Shown one piece after another: positions 42,102-55,059 of a stretch of DNA of 64,000 bases. Each line of letters opens with the position of its first letter. Within the stretch, counting starts at the first letter, position 1. Position numbers and translations under genes: made by a program. This DNA comes from Methanomicrobium antiquum. Lineage in GTDB: Archaea > Halobacteriota > Methanomicrobia > Methanomicrobiales > Methanomicrobiaceae. The stretch is from NCBI RefSeq assembly GCF_029633915.1, contig NZ_CP091092.1, forward strand, positions 1,984,001 through 2,048,000. The letters run 5' to 3'. The notes under the pieces were generated by a model. That model saw only the letters and a program-made list of their open reading frames with translations, ran no database searches and was not told the DNA's origin.

Positions 42102-42911
42102 CTATGAGTTGTATAAAAAGTGAAGGGCGTCTTTTCCTTCCTGAGTGATATGAATCAATGATTTTCTGTTCCTTTTTTCAATTTCGATGTATTTCCATTT
42201 CAAAAGGGGATCTATATAACGTCTTTCCAGTGCCCTGTATTTTGCAGGAACCTCGTTTTTTACCTTTTCTTCAACAAGAGTTATTTTTTCCCGCTCTAAT
42301 ATCTCAATCACTATTTTTTTATTAAGACCCTTTGAGCCGCCTTCTGAATCATATATCATATTTTTACTGATTATTGCAAGCACTTTTATTAAGCTGTCAG
42401 ATGGTTTTTCTATTCTGTATTCCGGAAGAATTTGTATATTTTTAAAACCGCTTGTCAATTGTTCTCCCATTTCAGGTTCAAGTTCATATTTTTCCGGTTG
42501 GACATAATAAGGTAAAACTGAGATGTGTTCTTCTTTGAAGATCATCGAGATCATCATTCCCGCAATTGAATGAATTTTTGATCCTGTTGATACATTGATA
42601 AAAATATGATTCTCTTTCTCTTCCTGTAATATTTCTCTATAGGCTTTTAATGTATCATACAATTTCAGATTTTTAAAATCAGTTTTTATATCAATAACAT
42701 CCAGTCCTGTTGATTTTTCTTTCAGTTGTCTTTTAATCTCATTTACACAATAAGCTCCTTTGTCATTTTCATCTTTATCAATTAACAGATATAGCCTGTC
42801 TGCATTCATCCGAATTACCGGAATAACGACACGATCAATTTCAAACCCAACAGGGGCAATGTGAACTCTTTTTGGGTTTAACAATTTTGTTGTAAATTCC
42901 ATTATTAACAT
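42102..42911 (-). CDS. CARF/HTH regulator (DUF6293 type)
   Basis: The 269-residue protein has an N-terminal Rossmann-like CARF domain (HIAPVGFEIDRVVIPVIRMN, NHIFINVSTGSKIHSIAGMM) and a C-terminal winged helix (about residues 170-269, ending in SLIHITQEGKDALHFL). CARF domains sense cyclic oligoadenylates or other nucleotides. It is divergent from cas3 across 134 bases, so a role as cas regulator is likely. ATG 42902 may be the real start: a TATA at 42924-42934 would place transcription there, giving a leaderless mRNA. The type I-G locus itself has no Cas10 to make cyclic oligoadenylate, so the ligand is unknown. Confidence 0.8.
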   Translation of the reverse strand: MLIMEFTTKLLNPKRVHIAPVGFEIDRVVIPVIRMNADRLYLLIDKDENDKGAYCVNEIKRQLKEKSTGLDVIDIKTDFKNLKLYDTLKAYREILQEEKENHIFINVSTGSKIHSIAGMMISMIFKEEHISVLPYYVQPEKYELEPEMGEQLTSGFKNIQILPEYRIEKPSDSLIKVLAIISKNMIYDSEGGSKGLNKKIVIEILEREKITLVEEKVKNEVPAKYRALERRYIDPLLKWKYIEIEKRNRKSLIHITQEGKDALHFLYNS

Positions 42912-43045: not shown

Positions 43046-45463
43046 ATGAGTTCTAGTTCAAATGAATATCAACAATTTTTTCGAGATGCAACAGGGCATC
43101 TGCCATACCCATATCAGGAGAAATTAGCAACATCAGATAATTTTCCTGAAGTTATTGAAGTTCCAACCGGGCTTGGAAAAACCGATGCAATTATTCTCGC
43201 ATGGATTTGGAGACGGCGCTTTGATCCAAGAAATGATGTTCGGAACTCTACTCCAAGAAGACTTTTTTTCTGCCTCCCAATGAGAGTTCTTGTCGAACAA
43301 ACCAGGGATAAAGTAGAGAAATGGCTTGATAAACTAAATCTTCTTGGAAAAAATTCTACAAATGATGGCGAGAAGATTTCTGTTACGGTTTTGATGGGAG
43401 GGGAAGACAAGCACAACTGGGATCTCTATCCGGAGAGAGATGCGATTATTATCGGAACACAGGATATGTTGATTTCCCGTGCCCTGAATCGTGGATATGG
43501 TATGAGCAGGTATAGATGGCCAACCCATTTTGGACTCATGAACAATGATTGTCTCTGGGTAATGGACGAGATCCAGCTTATGGGAAAAGGTCTTTCTACA
43601 ACACTGCAACTCCAGGCATTCCGCAATAAAATTGGAACGATTGACTCACTTCCCGCAAAATCGGTCTGGATGAGTGCAACTCTGAATAAGGAGTGGTTAA
43701 AGACTGTGGACTATAATCCTGAAAAAGAGATTAATAAAGTTCAAAAACTTGATGAGGATGATTTAAAAGAACCTCTTGTTAATAAACGCAATAATGCGAT
43801 TAAAATATTAAGGAAAGCAAAACACGATTCCACCAAACCAAAAGAACTTGCTGAAGAGATTATTTCAAAACACAAAGCAGGCTATAGAACTCTTGTAGTA
43901 GTTAATACCGTAAAAAGGGCTACTGAGCTATATGAAGCATTGGAGAAGAAAAAACCGGATGCTTCACTTGTTTTAATCCATTCGAGGTTCAGACCTTCAG
44001 ATAGAAAAAAGGTTGTGCAGTCTCTTCTTGATGAGCCAAATGAATTTGGGACTATAATTGTTTCTACACAGGTTATTGAAGCAGGAGTTGATGTTTCGGC
44101 AAAGGTGCTTTTCACAGAACTTTGCCCATGGTCATCTCTCGTTCAGAGATTGGGAAGATGCAACCGTTCAGGTGAATATGATGATGCGGAGATTTACTGG
44201 ATAGATGTTTTATTAGACAAGAAAAATTCAGCACTCCCATATACGGAAGAAGAACTTTCAAAGTCATATGATATTCTAACAGAATTTGAAGGGTGCAGTG
44301 TTGGACCAGCAAATCTTCCAGCTGTTGATCTAAATTTTACTCATAAGCAAATTATTCGAAAGAAGGAGATCTTTGAACTCTTTGACACAACTCCTGATTT
44401 AACCGGCAGTGATATTGATATCTCAAGGTACATTCGCGATGATGAGGAGATGGATTTTTCAGTATTCTGGCGTGATTTTAATTATTCCGGAATATTTGAT
44501 GATAGCCTGCCCCACAGAGATGAATTATGTTCTGTTCCTGTAAGTGATATAAAAAACCTGGTGGATAAGCATACAGTCCGAATCTGGGACCACCTTGATG
44601 GTGAATGGAAGGTTGTCAGAAAGGGAAATTACAGTGATATCTATCCAGGAGTAACAGTGTTGCTTGACTCTAAAGAGGGCGGCTATAGTAGTGAAAAAGG
44701 ATGGGATCTTAAATCAAAGAAGGCTGTCGATGAGATTTCACATGCAGACAAGGGTATTGAAAAACCCTATTCTGATTATATTTCAGAAGGTAAGTGGGAG
44801 TCTGTTGCTGAACATACAGATGAAGTTTGCAGAGAAATTGAATCAATAATGAACAAAATTGGGTTGGATGGAAATTTTTCTGGATCACTTATTGATGGTG
44901 CACGCTGGCATGATGCAGGAAAGGCTCATAGATCATTTCAGGCTCTAATAAAAGATGAGGAATTGGAAAGTTATTCAAATCCTCCTGCGGCTAAAGCACC
45001 TAAAGGAGCCTGGAAGGGTAACCCCGGACTTAATAAATGTAATGAGGATGGAAGGAGGAAATTTTTCCGCCACGAACTTGCTTCCGGTATTTTGGCTTTA
45101 ATGAACGGTAAGAGTGATTTGGCAGCATATCTTGCAGCCGCTCATCATGGAAAGGTTCGTGGCTCTATCAGGTCAATGCCGGATGAATGTGTTCCTTTGG
45201 ATAAGGAGAGGAGGTATGCCCGCGGGGTCTGGGATGGCGATATTGTTCCTGAGACAGATCTTGGTGGAGGTGTTAAGTTGCCGGAGACTGAAATTGACCT
45301 TTCATTTATGGATCTTGGAGAAGGCAGGAAAGGACCAAGCTGGTCTGCAAGAGTTCTAAACCTCAGGGATTCTCCAGATATCGGACCTTTCAGGCTGGCA
45401 TATATGGAGGCGTTAATGAAAGCATCTGATGAAAGAGCAAGTGGAGGTGGAAAGAATGACTGA
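43046..45463 (+). CDS. cas3: Cas3 helicase-nuclease, HD domain at C-terminus
   Basis: The 805-residue protein unwinds and shreds target DNA in type I interference. The helicase comes first: Walker A PTGLGKT at 40-46, DEIQ at 174-177, SAT at 210-212, and a second RecA domain with IVSTQVIEAGVDVS and QRLGRCNR. The HD nuclease follows, with His622-Asp623 (ARWHDAGKAH), RHELASG and AAHHGK. This helicase-HD order is typical of type I-G/I-U, the reverse of type I-E and I-C. It overlaps csx17 by 8 bases. Confidence 0.95.
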   Translation: MSSSSNEYQQFFRDATGHLPYPYQEKLATSDNFPEVIEVPTGLGKTDAIILAWIWRRRFDPRNDVRNSTPRRLFFCLPMRVLVEQTRDKVEKWLDKLNLLGKNSTNDGEKISVTVLMGGEDKHNWDLYPERDAIIIGTQDMLISRALNRGYGMSRYRWPTHFGLMNNDCLWVMDEIQLMGKGLSTTLQLQAFRNKIGTIDSLPAKSVWMSATLNKEWLKTVDYNPEKEINKVQKLDEDDLKEPLVNKRNNAIKILRKAKHDSTKPKELAEEIISKHKAGYRTLVVVNTVKRATELYEALEKKKPDASLVLIHSRFRPSDRKKVVQSLLDEPNEFGTIIVSTQVIEAGVDVSAKVLFTELCPWSSLVQRLGRCNRSGEYDDAEIYWIDVLLDKKNSALPYTEEELSKSYDILTEFEGCSVGPANLPAVDLNFTHKQIIRKKEIFELFDTTPDLTGSDIDISRYIRDDEEMDFSVFWRDFNYSGIFDDSLPHRDELCSVPVSDIKNLVDKHTVRIWDHLDGEWKVVRKGNYSDIYPGVTVLLDSKEGGYSSEKGWDLKSKKAVDEISHADKGIEKPYSDYISEGKWESVAEHTDEVCREIESIMNKIGLDGNFSGSLIDGARWHDAGKAHRSFQALIKDEELESYSNPPAAKAPKGAWKGNPGLNKCNEDGRRKFFRHELASGILALMNGKSDLAAYLAAAHHGKVRGSIRSMPDECVPLDKERRYARGVWDGDIVPETDLGGGVKLPETEIDLSFMDLGEGRKGPSWSARVLNLRDSPDIGPFRLAYMEALMKASDERASGGGKND

Positions 45464-47873
45464 TTTGGCACTGAAGGGCTGTACTTATGAGCCGATGTCG
45501 GCTTATTTGTCTGCTCTTGCTGTACTAAGGCTCGTTAGCGAACAAAAAGATCCCGATGCAAAAGGCTGGTGGGACGATCTTGGTGTTTTTCATCTTGATT
45601 CCTGTCTTGATGAAGAAGGTTTAGTAAATTTCTTCCTTGAGGAATACCGGCCGACTCCTATTGTTTCGCCGTGGAATGGTGGATCAGGATTTAATGACGG
45701 GGACAATGTAGATAGTTTAAATGCGATAATTAAGGACGATTCCGAGCGTTTATCTTCATATCGTGAAACCATCAAAACAATTCGTTCATTCCCTGAGATA
45801 CCCAATACCGATGTTCCACTGAGAGAATTAATTACTATTTTCCGTAATGAAACTAACGAGAAGAAGGGGAAAACCAAAGATGATTTTCTGGAACTTTTGG
45901 AGAGAACAGAAAGATCGATTTCTGAAATTCCTTATCTTACTTCTGATGATGAAATTTTAAAACACACTATCCCGGAGCTTGAAGAGAGGGCAAAAACATC
46001 AAAAAAGTCTTCAGATAAAGAGAAAAAGCAATCGGATGCCATAAAAATTCTTTTAAGGGAAGTCAAGAAGATCAGAACTAACGTAAAAACTCTCTTGAAA
46101 AAGAAAAGTTCAGGGAAGGAGGATATTATTTCTGCCAGCAGGGATCGTTTGAATGATCAGGTGGCTGAATGGATAGATGCATCAACTTTAATTGCTCCAG
46201 ATGGTACTGCAGTATATCCTCCTATTCTTGGAACAGGTGGAAATGATGGAAGATTTGAATTTTCGAATAATTTTATGAGCTGTATTGTAAACCTGCTTAT
46301 TGAACAGCCCGAGTATTCTAAAACCCTTTTGATGAATGCAATCTTTGATGAAAAGACAGATTGTCTTCAAAATATATCTATTGGACAGTATGATCCAAGC
46401 CGGACCGGCGGATTTAATCAGGGAAATGGAATAGAGAATAAAGATGAATTTAAAGCCAATCCCTGGGCTTTTATTCTCACTTTTGAGGGGACAATTCCCT
46501 GGGCAAGTTCTGTAGTTAAGAGTAAGAATTTGAAAACCAGAGGAGATTCTCTTCTCAGAAGTCCTTTCACTGTCCGGTCTGTTCAGGTAGGTTACAATTC
46601 ATCTGCTGAAAATGAGAAATCACGTGCTGAAATCTGGGCACCAGTATGGAAAAATCCTACTAAATACAGGGAGTTAAAGTCTTTTTTGAGTGAAGGGCGG
46701 GCAAATATCGGTAGAAACATGGCAGCGAACAGTATTGAATTTGCAGAGGCTGTCCGTTCTTTAAGTGTTGACAGGGGAATTTCGGATTTCGTAAGGTACA
46801 ATCTCCTTGAAAGAAGAGGTAATAACTACCTTGCTCTTCCTACGGGTGTCTTCAATGTTCATTATAAAGAAGAAAGTTCTCTGATTCGGGAATTAAATCC
46901 GTTATTGTCTTCGGTGGATTTTGTACTCCGGGGAGATAATATTCCTGCAAGCTTAAAATCCGCAAGGAGGAAAATTGATGAAAAGATCTATGATAGTTTA
47001 CTTTATGGGGGTAAAACGAATGTAAAAGCTCTTATCTCAGCAATCGGACAATTTGAAAAACTTTTATCCCGGTCAGGGAGTACGTCAGAACCCATAATCA
47101 GAAGACCAATATCAGGCCTTTCTCCCCGGTGGATTGAGTTTGCCGATGACGGCAGTCTTGAGGTTAGAATTGCAGCGGCAATTGCCTCAATAAGATCTAC
47201 CGGGGGTGTAGGTCCAATCAGGGCTAATCTTTCCCCGGTAGACCCTAAAAGACCTTACCTGTGGAGTACAGGAAAAGGACAGTTTGCATGGGAAGGAAAC
47301 TCCATTTATGCAAGACTAAGTTCCGTCCTCTCCAGAAGGATGATGGATGCAGAAAGGCTGGGAGTAAACCATAACCCTCTTTGGGGTGCAATCCATCTTT
47401 CAGCTAAAGACATAAATGCGTTCATTGAAGGGCATGTCGATGAATCACTTGTCGAAAATCTTCTTTTTGGATTCAGCTGGATTAACTGGAATAAAAAGGA
47501 TGATCTAGCCGAATTGAATAAAACTCTTTTTGAAAAGGAGAAGAATAGAAATGATAAAGAAAATTCAGGTGTGATTTCAAGACCTTATGCTTTGCTTAAG
47601 CTGTTATTCATGCCTGATGGCATAAAAAAAGCCGATGTTCGGGTTATCATTAAACCTGAATCATCGATAATTCCACTCCTTCGTGCAGGACGGATAAAGG
47701 ATGCCTGCACAATTGCCGATCGAAGACTTCGAACAAAGGATTTCATACCTGTTACCTCATCTTTTCCTGATGGAGGCAATGGTTTGCAAATTTCTGCCGC
47801 CCTTCTGATCCCTGTAAGAGATGAATGGCGGCTTAAGAAGTTAGTACTGAGAGAAGAACAAGACAAAAATTAA
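45456..47873 (+). CDS. csx17: Csx17 (Cas8u2), type I-G large subunit
   Basis: The 805-residue protein has the Csx17 opening LALKGCTYEPMSAYLSALAV, followed by LRLVSEQKDPDAKGWWDDL, which is diagnostic for type I-G (I-U3) Cascade. It would act as the large subunit that finds the PAM and recruits Cas3. ATG 45456 is chosen: GGAGGTGG lies 7 bases upstream and the family starts here. Residues about 143-228 are a strongly charged Lys/Glu coiled coil that looks like an insertion. The C-terminal half is less conserved. It is 14 bases before csb1. Confidence 0.92.
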   Translation: MTDLALKGCTYEPMSAYLSALAVLRLVSEQKDPDAKGWWDDLGVFHLDSCLDEEGLVNFFLEEYRPTPIVSPWNGGSGFNDGDNVDSLNAIIKDDSERLSSYRETIKTIRSFPEIPNTDVPLRELITIFRNETNEKKGKTKDDFLELLERTERSISEIPYLTSDDEILKHTIPELEERAKTSKKSSDKEKKQSDAIKILLREVKKIRTNVKTLLKKKSSGKEDIISASRDRLNDQVAEWIDASTLIAPDGTAVYPPILGTGGNDGRFEFSNNFMSCIVNLLIEQPEYSKTLLMNAIFDEKTDCLQNISIGQYDPSRTGGFNQGNGIENKDEFKANPWAFILTFEGTIPWASSVVKSKNLKTRGDSLLRSPFTVRSVQVGYNSSAENEKSRAEIWAPVWKNPTKYRELKSFLSEGRANIGRNMAANSIEFAEAVRSLSVDRGISDFVRYNLLERRGNNYLALPTGVFNVHYKEESSLIRELNPLLSSVDFVLRGDNIPASLKSARRKIDEKIYDSLLYGGKTNVKALISAIGQFEKLLSRSGSTSEPIIRRPISGLSPRWIEFADDGSLEVRIAAAIASIRSTGGVGPIRANLSPVDPKRPYLWSTGKGQFAWEGNSIYARLSSVLSRRMMDAERLGVNHNPLWGAIHLSAKDINAFIEGHVDESLVENLLFGFSWINWNKKDDLAELNKTLFEKEKNRNDKENSGVISRPYALLKLLFMPDGIKKADVRVIIKPESSIIPLLRAGRIKDACTIADRRLRTKDFIPVTSSFPDGGNGLQISAALLIPVRDEWRLKKLVLREEQDKN

Positions 47874-47887
47874 TTTGAGGTGAAAAA

Positions 47888-48922
47888 ATGACAGAAATAA
47901 ATATTGATTTTGAAAAGCTTGCAAAGACTCCAAGATTATTAATCGAAGCGGAATTGAAACCTATTCAGGGCGAGAGATTTCAGCCCACCGGATTTCCGGA
48001 TCTGGGAGCGGCAGTTTACGAAAGACCTGACGGGAAGCGTATGATTCTTGTCGAATCGGCTCAGTCGGTTGCAAACCGTCTTGAAGCGACAATTCTTGAT
48101 GAATCCGGAATTGGTATTGCAAATGAATTCACAGGTATTCCATATATTTGTGTGAATCTTGAAGGACAGATAGATGGCGGCGATTATTCTACCAGGACTA
48201 CTTCACTGATTGAAGCTCACAGAATCAACTCGCCGTTCATTATCAGTAATGAAGATTTTAAAAATGGCTTTAAGAACAGAGCCAATTATGAAAAAGGAAA
48301 ACCTCTTGACTGGAAAAAGATTGCAGCGGCATTTTTGTATTATGATCCAAATTCCCTTATTCATGGTGCATTTATGGCAAACCTTGAGGATGGAAGGGTC
48401 AAAGTTCAAAGGGCCCTGACTGGCTTTATTGAAGCTGAAGGAATAAATGAAGTCGCTTCCGGAGGTGTAAAGAATAATCCTCTTGATCCAACCGGCAAGA
48501 TTAGGGCAGAGAATTATGACAAAGATGTCTATGGGAATGTCCCATATCACCGGATGGAATATACAGCAGACCGTATTGTTGCCTACTTCAATTTTGACAT
48601 TTCATTGCTTGAAGGGTATGGTCTTCCAAATGAAGCAAAAGAACTTCTTATTGCCCTTGGACTTTACAAAGTCCGAAAACTGTTAAACCAAGGACTAAGG
48701 CTGAGAACTGCATGTGATTTTGTTGTCATGGATGATATCAGAGTAACAAATCCTGACGGTTTTGTGATTCCTGTTGAAGATTCACTTTTAAAGATCGTTC
48801 AGGAAAAAATTCAGGCATGTGCCTCTAAAGGTTTGTTTGCACAACCGGCAGTGACTGAATTAAAAGCAGAAGTCAAGAAGAAAGATAAAAAATCAAAAGA
48901 TGAAGAAGATGAAACTAACTGA
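47888..48922 (+). CDS. csb1: Csb1 (Cas7 group), type I-G backbone
   Basis: The 344-residue RAMP protein would polymerise along the crRNA as the Cascade backbone. It has the GSU0053-family start (RLLIEAELKPIQGERFQPTG, FPDLGAAVYERP) and MILVESAQSVANRLEATI. The last 20 residues are a Lys/Asp/Glu-rich tail. A GAGGTGAAAAA site precedes the ATG. It lies between csx17 and csb2, each within 20 bases. Confidence 0.93.
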   Translation: MTEINIDFEKLAKTPRLLIEAELKPIQGERFQPTGFPDLGAAVYERPDGKRMILVESAQSVANRLEATILDESGIGIANEFTGIPYICVNLEGQIDGGDYSTRTTSLIEAHRINSPFIISNEDFKNGFKNRANYEKGKPLDWKKIAAAFLYYDPNSLIHGAFMANLEDGRVKVQRALTGFIEAEGINEVASGGVKNNPLDPTGKIRAENYDKDVYGNVPYHRMEYTADRIVAYFNFDISLLEGYGLPNEAKELLIALGLYKVRKLLNQGLRLRTACDFVVMDDIRVTNPDGFVIPVEDSLLKIVQEKIQACASKGLFAQPAVTELKAEVKKKDKKSKDEEDETN

Positions 48923-48937
48923 AATGGGAGCTTAATT

Positions 48938-50419
48938 ATGCTTGCTATTGAAGTAAAGTTTCTTACCGGACGTTTCCATGCAACTCCCTGGGGGAGGAAT
49001 GTAAACGAAGGAGTTCTCGAGTGGCCCCCTTCACCTTACAGGCTCATTCGTGCTCTCTATGATGTCTGGAAACGCAAATTCCCATATTGGCCTGAGGGTC
49101 GCGTTGAGTCAATCCTTTGTGAACTTGCCCGTGAACCTCCATTATTTGAGCTTCCTGAAGCTAATGCCTCTCATACACGCTCTTATCTTAGCCAAAATAA
49201 AGAGGACATCACAAAGAAGCAAATGGTTTTTGATGCATTTGTAGTAATGCAGGAGGATTCGGCTGTAAAGATGATGTGGCCGAACTCACATCTTTCAGAT
49301 GACAAATTAAAAGATCTCGATTGTTTGCTTTCTCATCTTAATTACTTTGGGAGATCCGAGTCATGGGTTGAGGCGAGAATAATTCCTGAAACAAATGGGA
49401 CAAAATGGAATTGTGCCCCTGATTATTGTGAAAATCCTGTAAAAAATCTTGAGCCTGTAAAGGTTGCGTGTCCCGTTACTTTGGATGATTACATGGAAAA
49501 TCCATATATTGCCAAAGCAGTGATAAAAAAGGATAAAGACCGGGAATACAGCTGGATGGATTCATTTACAGTTACAACCTCAGATATGCTCGATTCAGGT
49601 CTGAATGTTCCTCCGGGACTTAAGTTTATTACATATCTGCGAAGAAATGACTGTTTTAAGATCTCAAAACCAGCCACTTCAAATTACGCCCGGACTGGCT
49701 ATACCGCAGTTATCTATGCCCTTGATTCAAAGGTTCATCCATCTGTAAAAGAGACTATTGAGCTGTCAGAACGTGTTCATCGAAAAATCATGGGTGTTTA
49801 TAAAAGAGTTGTCAATGACCCTGATAAGAAATCCACGATTTTTAGCGGAAGAGATGGAGATGGAAGACCTCTTAGGAATCATCAACATACCTACATTTGT
49901 CCAATTGACAAAGATAATGATGGCTGGCTTGATCATCTTGTTATAATCTCAAAGACTCCATTTAATCCTGAAGAGCAAATCACCCTCGATCGTCTGAATA
50001 AAACATGGCAGCCTGACGGAAAACCGGATATCTTTTTTGTTCCTCTGAAATGGGGTGATTACAAAGACATTCTTGATGAAAACTCCGGAACAAGATTTAG
50101 AAGTTCAACACCTTTTGTTCCGCCAAGGCATTACAGGAAGGGAAGGGGGGATTTCATGGAATGGATTGCAGGTGAGGTTAAGAAGGAGGCAGAATATCAT
50201 GGTCTTCCTGTACCTGTAGAGGTAAAGCCGGTTGAGAATTTGTCCTTGAAGAATGGCAGATCTCTTCGGTGGCTTGAGTTCCGCAGGAGCAGAAAAGGGG
50301 AGAGCAGAAAGATGGGATATGGATTTGAGATAGTCTTTCCTGAACCTGTATCACAACCGATTGCTCTTGGATATGGTGCACATTTTGGACTCGGACAGTT
50401 TGTTTCGGTAAAATATTAG
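48938..50419 (+). CDS. csb2: Csb2 (Cas5/Cas6-like fusion), crRNA processing
   Basis: The 493-residue protein is the GSU0054-family member in which Cas5- and Cas6-like RAMP domains are joined. It begins MLAIEVKFLTGRFHATPWGR with NEGVLEWPPSPYRLIRALYD, and ends with the glycine-rich RNA-binding loop ALGYGAHFGLGQFV. It should cut the array transcript at the base of the repeat stem and stay as the 5' or 3' cap. HQHTYICPIDKDNDGWLDHL holds candidate catalytic histidines. No separate cas5 or cas6 is present, as usual for type I-G. Confidence 0.9.
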   Translation: MLAIEVKFLTGRFHATPWGRNVNEGVLEWPPSPYRLIRALYDVWKRKFPYWPEGRVESILCELAREPPLFELPEANASHTRSYLSQNKEDITKKQMVFDAFVVMQEDSAVKMMWPNSHLSDDKLKDLDCLLSHLNYFGRSESWVEARIIPETNGTKWNCAPDYCENPVKNLEPVKVACPVTLDDYMENPYIAKAVIKKDKDREYSWMDSFTVTTSDMLDSGLNVPPGLKFITYLRRNDCFKISKPATSNYARTGYTAVIYALDSKVHPSVKETIELSERVHRKIMGVYKRVVNDPDKKSTIFSGRDGDGRPLRNHQHTYICPIDKDNDGWLDHLVIISKTPFNPEEQITLDRLNKTWQPDGKPDIFFVPLKWGDYKDILDENSGTRFRSSTPFVPPRHYRKGRGDFMEWIAGEVKKEAEYHGLPVPVEVKPVENLSLKNGRSLRWLEFRRSRKGESRKMGYGFEIVFPEPVSQPIALGYGAHFGLGQFVSVKY

Positions 50420-50436
50420 AGAGAAAAAGGGCAGGA

Positions 50437-52110
50437 GTGAGAAAAATTAGTGAATTTGAAATGCCGGATCTTATTCCTGCCCGTATGCTCAACGAATTTA
50501 CTTATTGTCCAAGATTGTGCTATATCGAATGGGTTGAGGGGGAATTTGAGGATAATGCTGATACCGTTGATGGCAGATTCCAGCACAGGAGAGTTGATCA
50601 AAGCCAGGGCGTAGTTCCCAATCCTGAAGAAGTTGCAGATTTTACAGCAAGATCTGTTGATATTTCTGCACATGAAATCGGCATTGTATGCCGACTTGAC
50701 CTTATTGAGGGCAAAGACGGACATGTAATTCCTGTTGAATATAAACGCGGTTACGTTCCAAAAATTGAAGGGGGGGCATATGAATCAGATAAAGTTCAGC
50801 TTTGTGCCCAAGGCCTTGCACTTAAAGAGAATGGGTACGAGTGTAATGAAGGACTAATTTATTTTGTCAAATCAAAACAGAAAGTTCAGATAACTTTCAA
50901 TGAATTATTAGTCAACCGGACAAAACAACTCATCAATAATTTGAGATTGATGATTGCTTCAGAAAAAATCCCTTCGCCACTTGTAGAGAGTTCCAGATGT
51001 GTCCGGTGCTCTCTTGCAGGAATATGCCTTCCGGATGAGATCAATTTCCTGAAAAATCCTGAGAATAGGAATGAGGAAATACCACAGGTAAGAAAATTTC
51101 TTCCTCCGAGAGATGACCAAATTCCTCTTTATGTAACAGGCTATGGTCAGACAGTGAGGAAAAAAGGTGAGAGATTAGAGGTATGGTCAAATCGAGACAA
51201 AACAGGTGAGGTGAAAATCAGGGAATTGTCACAAATCTCCCTTTATGGAAGTGCAGATATAACATCACCCGCATTTACAGAGATTTTGCAAAGAAACATT
51301 CCGATAAACTATTTTTCTTATGGAGGATGGTTTTATGGATTTTCTCAGGGAAATTCTCATAAAAATGTAGAACTAAGAATTAAACAGTTCGCTTTTGCAG
51401 AAGATAAAAAAAGATCTTTAAAACTGGCTCAGATGTTTGTTTATGGGAAAATTCTTAATTCCAGAACAATTTTACGCAGAAATGATGGAGAAGTTTCTGA
51501 TGAAATTTTAAAATCGCTGAAAAAACTTGCCAGTGATGCCAAATCATCCAATTCCTTGCAGACACTGTTGGGAATTGAAGGAGGAGCCGCTCAGATTTAT
51601 TTTTCAAGATTTAATAATCTTCTAAAATCAGATGATAGCTGGTATTCTTTTGAAAACCGAAATCGCAGACCTCCAAAAGATCCGGTAAATACTGTTCTTT
51701 CCTATCTTTATGGGGTGATGGTCAAGGAATTTTTTGTAACTCTTAACACAACAGGTTTTGATCCATATCTGGGCTTTTACCATCAGCCACGTTATGGCAG
51801 ACCTGCACTTGCATTAGATATGATGGAAGAGTTCAGGTCAATAATTGCGGATTCGGTTACTTTTACATTGTTTAATAATGGAGAATTATCTGAAAGGGAT
51901 TTCATCTCAAGAGGTCTTGGAGTAACATTAACTCCCACAGGCAAGAAAGCCGTTTTGAGAGGTTATGAAAGAAGAATAAGCACCGAAGTAAAGCATCCTT
52001 TGTTTGGATATAAAGTTAGTTACAGGCGGATTTTTGAAGTTCAGGCAAGGCTATTATCCCGTGTATTACATGGAGAAATTGATGTATATCCTCCTTTTTT
52101 AACAAGGTGA
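50437..52110 (+). CDS. cas4-cas1: Cas4-Cas1 fusion (adaptation integrase)
   Basis: The 557-residue fusion selects and integrates new spacers. The Cas4 part (about 1-205) has the iron-sulfur cysteines Cys24, Cys28 and the Cys188/Cys191/Cys197 cluster (RCVRCSLAGIC) and the RecB-nuclease motif VIPVEYKRGYV. The Cas1 part (about 220-557) has Glu381 in LGIEGGAAQ, His449 in GFYHQPRYG and Asp461 with Glu464-465 in LDMMEEFR. The frame opens at GTG 50437, next to AGGAG; ATG 50461 lacks a well-placed site. This fusion is a hallmark of type I-G. Confidence 0.95.
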   Translation: MRKISEFEMPDLIPARMLNEFTYCPRLCYIEWVEGEFEDNADTVDGRFQHRRVDQSQGVVPNPEEVADFTARSVDISAHEIGIVCRLDLIEGKDGHVIPVEYKRGYVPKIEGGAYESDKVQLCAQGLALKENGYECNEGLIYFVKSKQKVQITFNELLVNRTKQLINNLRLMIASEKIPSPLVESSRCVRCSLAGICLPDEINFLKNPENRNEEIPQVRKFLPPRDDQIPLYVTGYGQTVRKKGERLEVWSNRDKTGEVKIRELSQISLYGSADITSPAFTEILQRNIPINYFSYGGWFYGFSQGNSHKNVELRIKQFAFAEDKKRSLKLAQMFVYGKILNSRTILRRNDGEVSDEILKSLKKLASDAKSSNSLQTLLGIEGGAAQIYFSRFNNLLKSDDSWYSFENRNRRPPKDPVNTVLSYLYGVMVKEFFVTLNTTGFDPYLGFYHQPRYGRPALALDMMEEFRSIIADSVTFTLFNNGELSERDFISRGLGVTLTPTGKKAVLRGYERRISTEVKHPLFGYKVSYRRIFEVQARLLSRVLHGEIDVYPPFLTR

Positions 52111-52415
52111 GCATTTTGGGAAAACTTAGAGTGTATATTGTCAGTTATGATATATCAGATAGTAAGAGGCTTTACAGGGTTCACAAAACAATGAAAGGAT
52201 TTGGAGAACCGGTTCACTATTCTGTTTTCAGATGTAATCTCTCAGATAAAGATAAAATTGAATTAATTGCAATATTATCAGAAATTATAAAGCATGATGA
52301 AGACAGGATTATGATTATTGATCTAGGTTTCCTTGACGGTTATGTTGACAGAAGAATCAGTCTAATCGGGGTTCACCCAGAGGAGGATAATAATGAATCG
52401 GCAATCATTGTATGA
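52107..52415 (+). CDS. cas2: Cas2
   Basis: The 102-residue protein dimerises and bridges Cas1 dimers in the integration complex. It has RVYIVSYDISDSKRLYRVHK, with the Asp of YDIS, then GFGEPVHYSVFRCNLSD. The frame overlaps cas4-cas1 by 4 bases at GTG 52107; TTG 52116 is an alternative start with AAGGTGA 6 bases upstream. It is the last cas gene and leads into the array. Confidence 0.95.
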   Translation: MSILGKLRVYIVSYDISDSKRLYRVHKTMKGFGEPVHYSVFRCNLSDKDKIELIAILSEIIKHDEDRIMIIDLGFLDGYVDRRISLIGVHPEEDNNESAIIV

Positions 52416-52689: not shown

Positions 52690-55059
52690 CTTACCACATC
52701 TGAAAAGATGTGGCTCCATTGAAGTGCTACAATCCCAAATAAAAACAAGATAATAAACGGCAACTTACCACATCTGAAAAGATGTGGCTCCATTGAAGTT
52801 CGTTTATCTCTAAATAAAAAGAATCATCAGATTTTCTTACCACATCTGAAAAGATGTGGCTCCATTGAAGTATTATCCCCTCTCCCCCTCCTACGGTTGT
52901 ATTTAATGCTTACCACATCTGAAAAGATGTGGCTCCATTGAAGTCCCCGACGGATCGTATTGGTTGCATGACTATATTGAGCTTACCACATCTGAAAAGA
53001 TGTGGCTCCATTGAAGTCTGGTTGTTTTTCGGGTTCTGTCATTGTTTTCCTCAACTTACCACATCTGAAAAGATGTGGCTCCATTGAAGTTGCAAAAATT
53101 TCCGGCCAGTTAATCTCCTGGGTGAAACTTACCACATCTGAAAAGATGTGGCTCCATTGAAGTACAAAGGTTTAGAACGAGTTAAGAAAGCACAATCTCC
53201 TTACCACATCTGAAAAGATGTGGCTCCATTGAAGTGATACTGAAATGGGTGTGACTTCTGATGAGTCTATACCGCTTACCACATCTGAAAAGATGTGGCT
53301 CCATTGAAGTCTAAGCGCCCATTTAACAATATCGCGCTGAAATTCAACTTACCACATCTGAAAAGATGTGGCTCCATTGAAGTATTATTCCCTCTCCGCC
53401 TCCTACTGTTGTATTTAGTGAGCTTACCACATCTGAAAAGATGTGGCTCCATTGAAGTCTCTGCAACGTTTGTTGTTCCGTTCCAGATTGGCATTCTTAC
53501 CACATCTGAAAAGATGTGGCTCCATTGAAGTATTTTGTAGAAGATTTAAAACCTTATGAGATATATTACTTACCACATCTGAAAAGATGTGGCTCCATTG
53601 AAGTCTTCTGCGTTCATAATCCTCCCCCATCTTATAATCCACCTTACCACATCTGAAAAGATGTGGCTCCATTGAAGTAAGGCTGATTTGGCATTGTATG
53701 AGATTATAGATGATCTTACCACATCTGAAAAGATGTGGCTCCATTGAAGTGATACTGATATGTTCTTTTGGATCAATATCATAACCCCTTACCACATCTG
53801 AAAAGATGTGGCTCCATTGAAGTGATATTCTGAACCCGTCAGGGACTGCCAAAGGTTTTCTTACCACATCTGAAAAGATGTGGCTCCATTGAAGTGTCAA
53901 TTACTACAAAGATGATAACAGGAGGTTATTACCTTACCACATCTGAAAAGATGTGGCTCCATTGAAGTAAGAGATCTCCAACTATAATTATTATCAATTA
54001 TAATCTTTCTTACCACATCTGAAAAGATGTGGCTCCATTGAAGTCTCTGTGGTTAATGCTTATGGCTCTGATGTGATTGATCTTACCACATCTGAAAAGA
54101 TGTGGCTCCATTGAAGTTCAGGTCACTCATTCAGAACACTCCTTTTCTTTCTGACTTACCACATCTGAAAAGATGTGGCTCCATTGAAGTGCATCAGTCT
54201 TTTTTCCAAAACATCATTCTGTCCAGGCTTACCACATCTGAAAAGATGTGGCTCCATTGAAGTTTTGATGCCTATTATACATTGTGCATTAACAGACAAT
54301 CTTACCACATCTGAAAAGATGTGGCTCCATTGAAGTCTAACTGATTTTTTGATAAATCAAACTTAAATTCCTCTTACCACATCTGAAAAGATGTGGCTCC
54401 ATTGAAGTTATACAGGTCACATTGAGATCGTCGAATCTAGACCCCTTACCACATCTGAAAAGATGTGGCTCCATTGAAGTCCAGTTTCGCCGCCGCGATA
54501 ACCGCCCTGGTGCGCACTTACCACATCTGAAAAGATGTGGCTCCATTGAAGTGAGGATATATCAGAAATATCTTTGTTTGATTATATCCTTACCACATCT
54601 GAAAAGATGTGGCTCCATTGAAGTCCACCTGAGAAACTCAGATAAATCTTTGGAAAATTCTTACCACATCTGAAAAGATGTGGCTCCATTGAAGTCCCAT
54701 TGTTTTTTTGATGCGGTCTTAAACTCTAAGACTTACCACATCTGAAAAGATGTGGCTCCATTGAAGTCAGACGACTCAGGGAAGAGAAGCCCGGAATGAG
54801 AGAATCTTACCACATCTGAAAAGATGTGGCTCCATTGAAGCTTGTGTGTGTCAAAATTGTTTTGATAATGATTATGTCCCTTACCACATCTGAAAAGATG
54901 TGGCTCCATTGAAGCGCTTTATAATATTCTGGTGAAACATACGCATCTATACTTACCACATCTGAAAAGATGTGGCTCCATTGAAGCCCTATACATCTGT
55001 GCGTAGGCTGAAGGGAGCATTTCCTTACCACATCTGAAAAGATGTAACTCCACTGAATT
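52690..55059 (+). CRISPR. CRISPR array, 33 repeats of 36 bp, type I-G
   Basis: I count 33 repeats and 32 spacers of 35-40 bases. The repeat reads CTTA, stem CCACATCT, loop GAAA, stem AGATGTGG, then CTCCATTGAAGT, so the crRNA 5' handle would come from that last part. Repeats 1-29 appear uniform, repeats 30-32 end in C instead of T, and repeat 33 (55024-55059) is degenerate (AACTCCACTGAATT at its end). This places the leader at the left, beside cas2. Spacer 3 (52872-52908) and spacer 10 (53384-53422) are 89 percent alike. Reading frames inside the array are not genes. Confidence 0.99.

Follow-up and report, generated by a model that had tools for sequence, protein, structure and literature searches.

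The window, the whole 64,000-nucleotide stretch of DNA that was analysed, carries a complete type I-G CRISPR-Cas operon (43046-52415) beside a CRISPR array. The host is a methanogen, because its 2.44-Mb genome carries mcrA. The genes were assigned with PADLOC and Pfam, and the locus reads, from left to right:

42102-42911, minus strand: CARF and winged-helix protein (HFX_2341/DUF6293), divergent from cas3
43046-45463, plus strand: cas3 of type I-G (Cas3g; PADLOC Cas3g, E 2.4e-273)
45429-47873, plus strand: cas8g, also csx17 (PADLOC Cas8g, E 1.1e-183)
47888-48922, plus strand: cas7g, also csb1 (PADLOC Cas7g, E 7.6e-45; Pfam Cas_GSU0053)
48938-50419, plus strand: cas5-cas6 fusion, csb2 (PADLOC Cas56g, E 6.1e-128)
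50437-52110, plus strand: cas4-cas1 fusion, a PAM-selecting integrase of 557 amino acids (PADLOC Cas1g, E 1.3e-179; Pfam Cas1 and Cas4)
52107-52415, plus strand: cas2 (PADLOC Cas2g, E 2.8e-25)
52690-55059, plus strand: CRISPR array of 33 repeats of 36 nt and 32 spacers of 35-40 nt

The locus thus combines Cas8g (Csx17), Csb1 (Cas7g), Csb2 (Cas5-Cas6), Cas3g, a Cas4-Cas1 fusion and Cas2, the genes by which type I-G (formerly I-U) is recognised. It resembles this type in its entire gene set, in its 36-nt hairpin repeat and in its spacers of 35-40 nt, and we found no defining difference from it. The CARF-winged-helix gene lies divergently beside cas3, and its product is a candidate regulator of the locus; type I-G systems are not known to produce a cyclic-nucleotide signal. 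At another place in the genome, a stand-alone gene (L088, 14327-15262, minus strand) encodes a Cas1-like protein of 311 amino acids that is 24% identical to the Cas1 part of the fusion; the 34 kb examined there contain no array.

The repeat of the array, CTTACCACATCTGAAAAGATGTGGCTCCATTGAAGT, is 36 nt long and folds into a hairpin of -12.3 kcal/mol. Its first 35 bases are identical across the 32 intact repeats, and the final repeat (55024-55059) is a degenerate copy. This degenerate terminal repeat, together with the position of the cas genes to the left of the array, led us to take the left as the leader side. Base 36 of the repeat (52725-54987) varies in blocks, with T throughout repeats 1-29 and C throughout 30-32. 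In the array of genome G011 (L011), the same base is T in 16 repeats, G in the next four and predominantly C thereafter, apart from isolated G and T, and in the array of G092 (L090-L091) it is C in 145 of 145 repeats; the first 35 bases hardly vary in any of the three arrays. The blocks are consistent with base 36 being inherited from the repeat nearest the leader and having shifted from C to T in two lineages. The isolated G's of the G011 array, confined to base 36, are odd, and it is possible that the end of the incoming prespacer contributes to this base.

Two spacers of the array resemble each other, and the reading frames found in them bear on what they target:

52872-52908, plus strand: spacer 3, 37 nt, the more recent of the two on the assumption of leader-end insertion
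52874-52906, minus strand: putative target frame in spacer 3, translated as LNTTVGGGEGI
53384-53422, plus strand: spacer 10, 39 nt, the older of the two on the same assumption
53386-53418, minus strand: putative target frame in spacer 10, translated as LNTTVGGGEGI, a peptide that the four differences from spacer 3 leave unchanged

The resemblance between spacers 3 and 10 is far above chance. We scored each pair of spacers as matches minus mismatches, without gaps, and took as the null the best pair of each shuffled array in 100 shuffles. Spacers 3 and 10 score 29, compared with a maximum of 17 in the shuffled arrays, and the resemblance is therefore real. All remaining pairs of the array score below 16; the agreement of spacers 8 and 15 over 11 of their first 13 bases was discounted, being attained in a few percent of shuffles. 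The initial annotation had reported this match, and both its coordinates and its count of 33 identical positions out of 37 proved exact, with mismatches at spacer positions 6, 15, 24 and 35. Spacers 3 and 10 align flush at their 5' ends, beside the preceding repeat, and at the 3' end spacer 10 extends 2 nt further. The spacers flanking spacer 3 are unrelated to those flanking spacer 10.

On the reverse strand, both spacers read LNTTVGGGEGI with no amino-acid change, and the four differences (TTA/CTA, ACC/ACA, GGG/GGC and GGG/GGA) are all silent. Forward frame 1 is also open, reading IIPSPPPTVVFN versus IIPSPPPTVVFS; here three of the four differences are silent and the remaining one is a conservative change from N to S. 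Translation thus bears out the peptide and both counts of silent differences given in the initial annotation. The other frames of the two spacers contain stops or have three to four residues altered.

Spacers 3 and 10 very probably reflect separate uptake events at one site in two diverged relatives, a reading that includes the favoured-site and priming cases discussed below. In type I systems, the end of the spacer that adjoins the preceding repeat is the PAM side. The flush PAM-side end, the ragged far end, the unrelated neighbours and the silent differences all point to two uptakes of one PAM-anchored site, and they support the earlier proposal that the array acquired the same site twice from two diverged invaders. 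In the mechanism that we propose, the type I-G Cas4-Cas1 and Cas2 proteins would have captured the same PAM-anchored site at two times, from two related invaders (virus or plasmid lineages) about 11% diverged. Cas4 would have cut both prespacers at the PAM, leaving coincident 5' ends next to the repeat, and trimming of the far end, not specific to sequence, would have left spacers of 37 and 39 nt. The site most likely lay in a conserved protein gene on the strand opposite to the spacer, encoding LNTTVGGGEGI, which would account for the silent differences. The likeness of the spacers, their flush and ragged ends, the pattern of silent differences and the complete I-G locus are direct observations; who the invader was, which PAM was used, which spacer came first and whether the target is a gene are points that we infer.

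For the Cas4/1 protein of the M. barkeri I-G system, cutting at the PAM has been assigned to the Cas4 domain and trimming of the opposite end, regardless of sequence, to the Cas1 domain (PMC10274657), and the I-G PAM is TTN (PMC9638904). In a Legionella type I-C experiment, one protospacer was acquired independently twice (PMC5071653). As in the array described here, a type I system captured the identical site twice, although the Legionella case involved a single plasmid in the laboratory, whereas the methanogen array is a natural one that holds two diverged versions. The pair is a real, well-observed but ordinary feature, of an already known sort, and on its own shows no new mechanism.

One special case of two separate uptakes is that the site is a hot spot of uptake or a functionally constrained target, favoured by integration or by selection. 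We consider this fairly unlikely. The same site does occur twice among 32 spacers, but uniform sampling of TTN sites gives such a repeat with a probability of 0.09-0.18 for an invader of 20-40 kb provided that its lineage supplied all 32 spacers, falling to 0.02-0.05 if it supplied half of them. The preference of integration or selection for this site that the initial annotation suggested is therefore unsupported, since there is a single pair and coincidence under uniform sampling may be as probable as about 0.1-0.2 if all spacers derive from one lineage. We also compared five arrays located beside related Cas1 genes in the host's order, with 293 spacers in total: those of the window (32 spacers), G011 (53), G092 (144), G006 (39) and G183 (25), the last two with a different repeat. 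A same-register repeat was absent from all four of the other arrays, which argues against a favoured site. Besides the pair in the window, there is one overlapping pair among the 293 spacers of the five arrays: in the type I-G-like array of G092 (L090-L091), spacers 105 and 108, which lie on opposite strands, overlap by 25 bases that differ at one position. The window is thus not alone in having sampled a drifting target more than once, although such cases are uncommon.

Another special case is primed re-acquisition, in which the crRNA of spacer 10 would have imperfectly recognised a drifted target, leading to the uptake of spacer 3 from the same site. Spacer 3 is indeed closer to the leader than spacer 10. 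The four mismatches between spacers 3 and 10 spare the usual seed of type I systems (positions 1-5, 7 and 8), and two of them (6 and 24) fall on sixth positions. However, an intact seed is expected in 41% of random cases. It is also generally known that priming usually gives spacers from other sites of the same invader and seldom from the identical site, and we met no report of priming in type I-G in that part of the literature naming both that we went through. We therefore judge priming unlikely here. There is a slim chance that the type I-G array refreshes decayed memory, with an old spacer whose seed still fits driving the uptake of an updated copy from a drifted virus. With a single pair, a hot spot, priming and coincidence are not distinguishable.

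The target of spacers 3 and 10 is likely, but not certain, to be coding in the LNTTVGGGEGI frame, as judged from four substitutions. Four random changes, drawn with a transition bias of 3, would all be silent with a probability of 0.003 in the LNTTVGGGEGI frame. At an omega of 0.1-0.2, the likelihood ratio is approximately 27-55 for the reverse coding frame versus neutral change and 7-15 for the reverse versus the forward frame, and the true support for coding is several-fold below these ratios because there were several open frames to pick from. Codon usage does not discriminate between the reverse and forward frames. The initial annotation had described the target as protein-coding and under purifying selection; the coding assignment stands as likely, but it is less firm than was claimed, given only four substitutions and a probability of 0.017 that all four would be silent in any open frame.

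It is quite improbable that the target is instead non-coding, for example a Shine-Dalgarno region, with the silent pattern arising by chance. The reverse strand of the target does contain AGGAGG, and spacer 10 has a weak gapped match to Vibrio phages VH2_2019 and PG28 (90% over 31 bases, E 0.04) that is intergenic and lies just upstream of a start codon. However, the differences between the spacers are frame-periodic, with the likelihood ratio given above favouring the reverse coding frame, and the phage match, being gapped, marginal in E-value and from phages with Vibrio hosts, is probably due to chance. A pattern of silent drift is known from cyanophage TC-CHP58, in which protospacer polymorphisms are mostly synonymous (13 versus 7 non-synonymous; PMC6129581). 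There, spacers mismatch drifted protospacers through mostly silent changes, as is proposed for spacers 3 and 10, but the drift in TC-CHP58 was seen in viral population data, whereas that of the target of spacers 3 and 10 is deduced from the two spacers alone.

On indirect evidence, it is highly improbable that spacer 3 or spacer 10 arose from the other through duplication or recombination in the array and later mutated. The two do share one array, orientation and register, and CRISPR arrays do rearrange, but the spacers adjoining them have nothing in common and the first 35 bases do not vary among the 32 intact repeats. A copy would also have needed both a 2-nt change exactly at the junction of spacer and repeat and four mutations silent in one frame by chance (0.017).

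The initial annotation had offered the spacers and the peptide as a means of finding the invader of these two uptakes. We ran this search, and no credible target of spacer or peptide was found in IMG/VR, in 84,980 GTDB genomes, in about 230 genomes of the order or in phage and plasmid collections. DNA searches of the phage and plasmid collections and of the order gave no protospacer for any of the 32 spacers. In the genomes of the order, the sole match to the spacer DNA and the peptide was the array itself. The peptide searches used degenerate patterns in both frames on IMG/VR, the GTDB genomes and the order. IMG/VR gave no match to LNTTVGGGEGI, NTTVGGGEG, the forward-frame peptide or LNTxVGGxEGI, and two scans of the GTDB genomes for peptide patterns were likewise without matches.

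Shorter or looser patterns gave matches in IMG/VR in numbers near the chance expectation. TTVGGGEGI matched once, in a short open frame reading TGTTTVGGGEGINNLSIGGGG on a contig of 55% GC (L038). LNTTVGGG matched 18 times, and none of these continued as EGI. LNxTVGGGxGI matched three times, two of which are one tape-measure-like protein (L079 and L080); the sequence near its end, LNPTVGGGYGI, is the closest by residues, and we do not claim it as a relative. In the phage and plasmid collections, the matches were marginal only: the intergenic one in the Vibrio phages, a 19-mer in Bacteroides phage BT16 that reads GGGEGM in frame, and a starch-synthase-like frame.

A tailed-virus-like contig from a genome of the same genus (L060-L062), two other terminase loci and ten IMG/VR relatives of the contig's terminase held no match to the spacers or the peptide. 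The tailed-virus-like contig (63.6 kb; L061 in G004) carries a terminase with neighbouring portal-, capsid- and primase-like open frames, and is apparently a tailed virus or provirus of the genus. A terminase 81% identical to that of L061 is present on IMG/VR contig 3300030616_001124.

Taken as two separate uptakes of one site, spacers 3 and 10 provide a clean, small example of a methanogen that encountered two diverged members of one invader lineage. Their PAM-side end, together with the probable peptide LNTTVGGGEGI, gives a means to recognise this invader lineage once it is sequenced.
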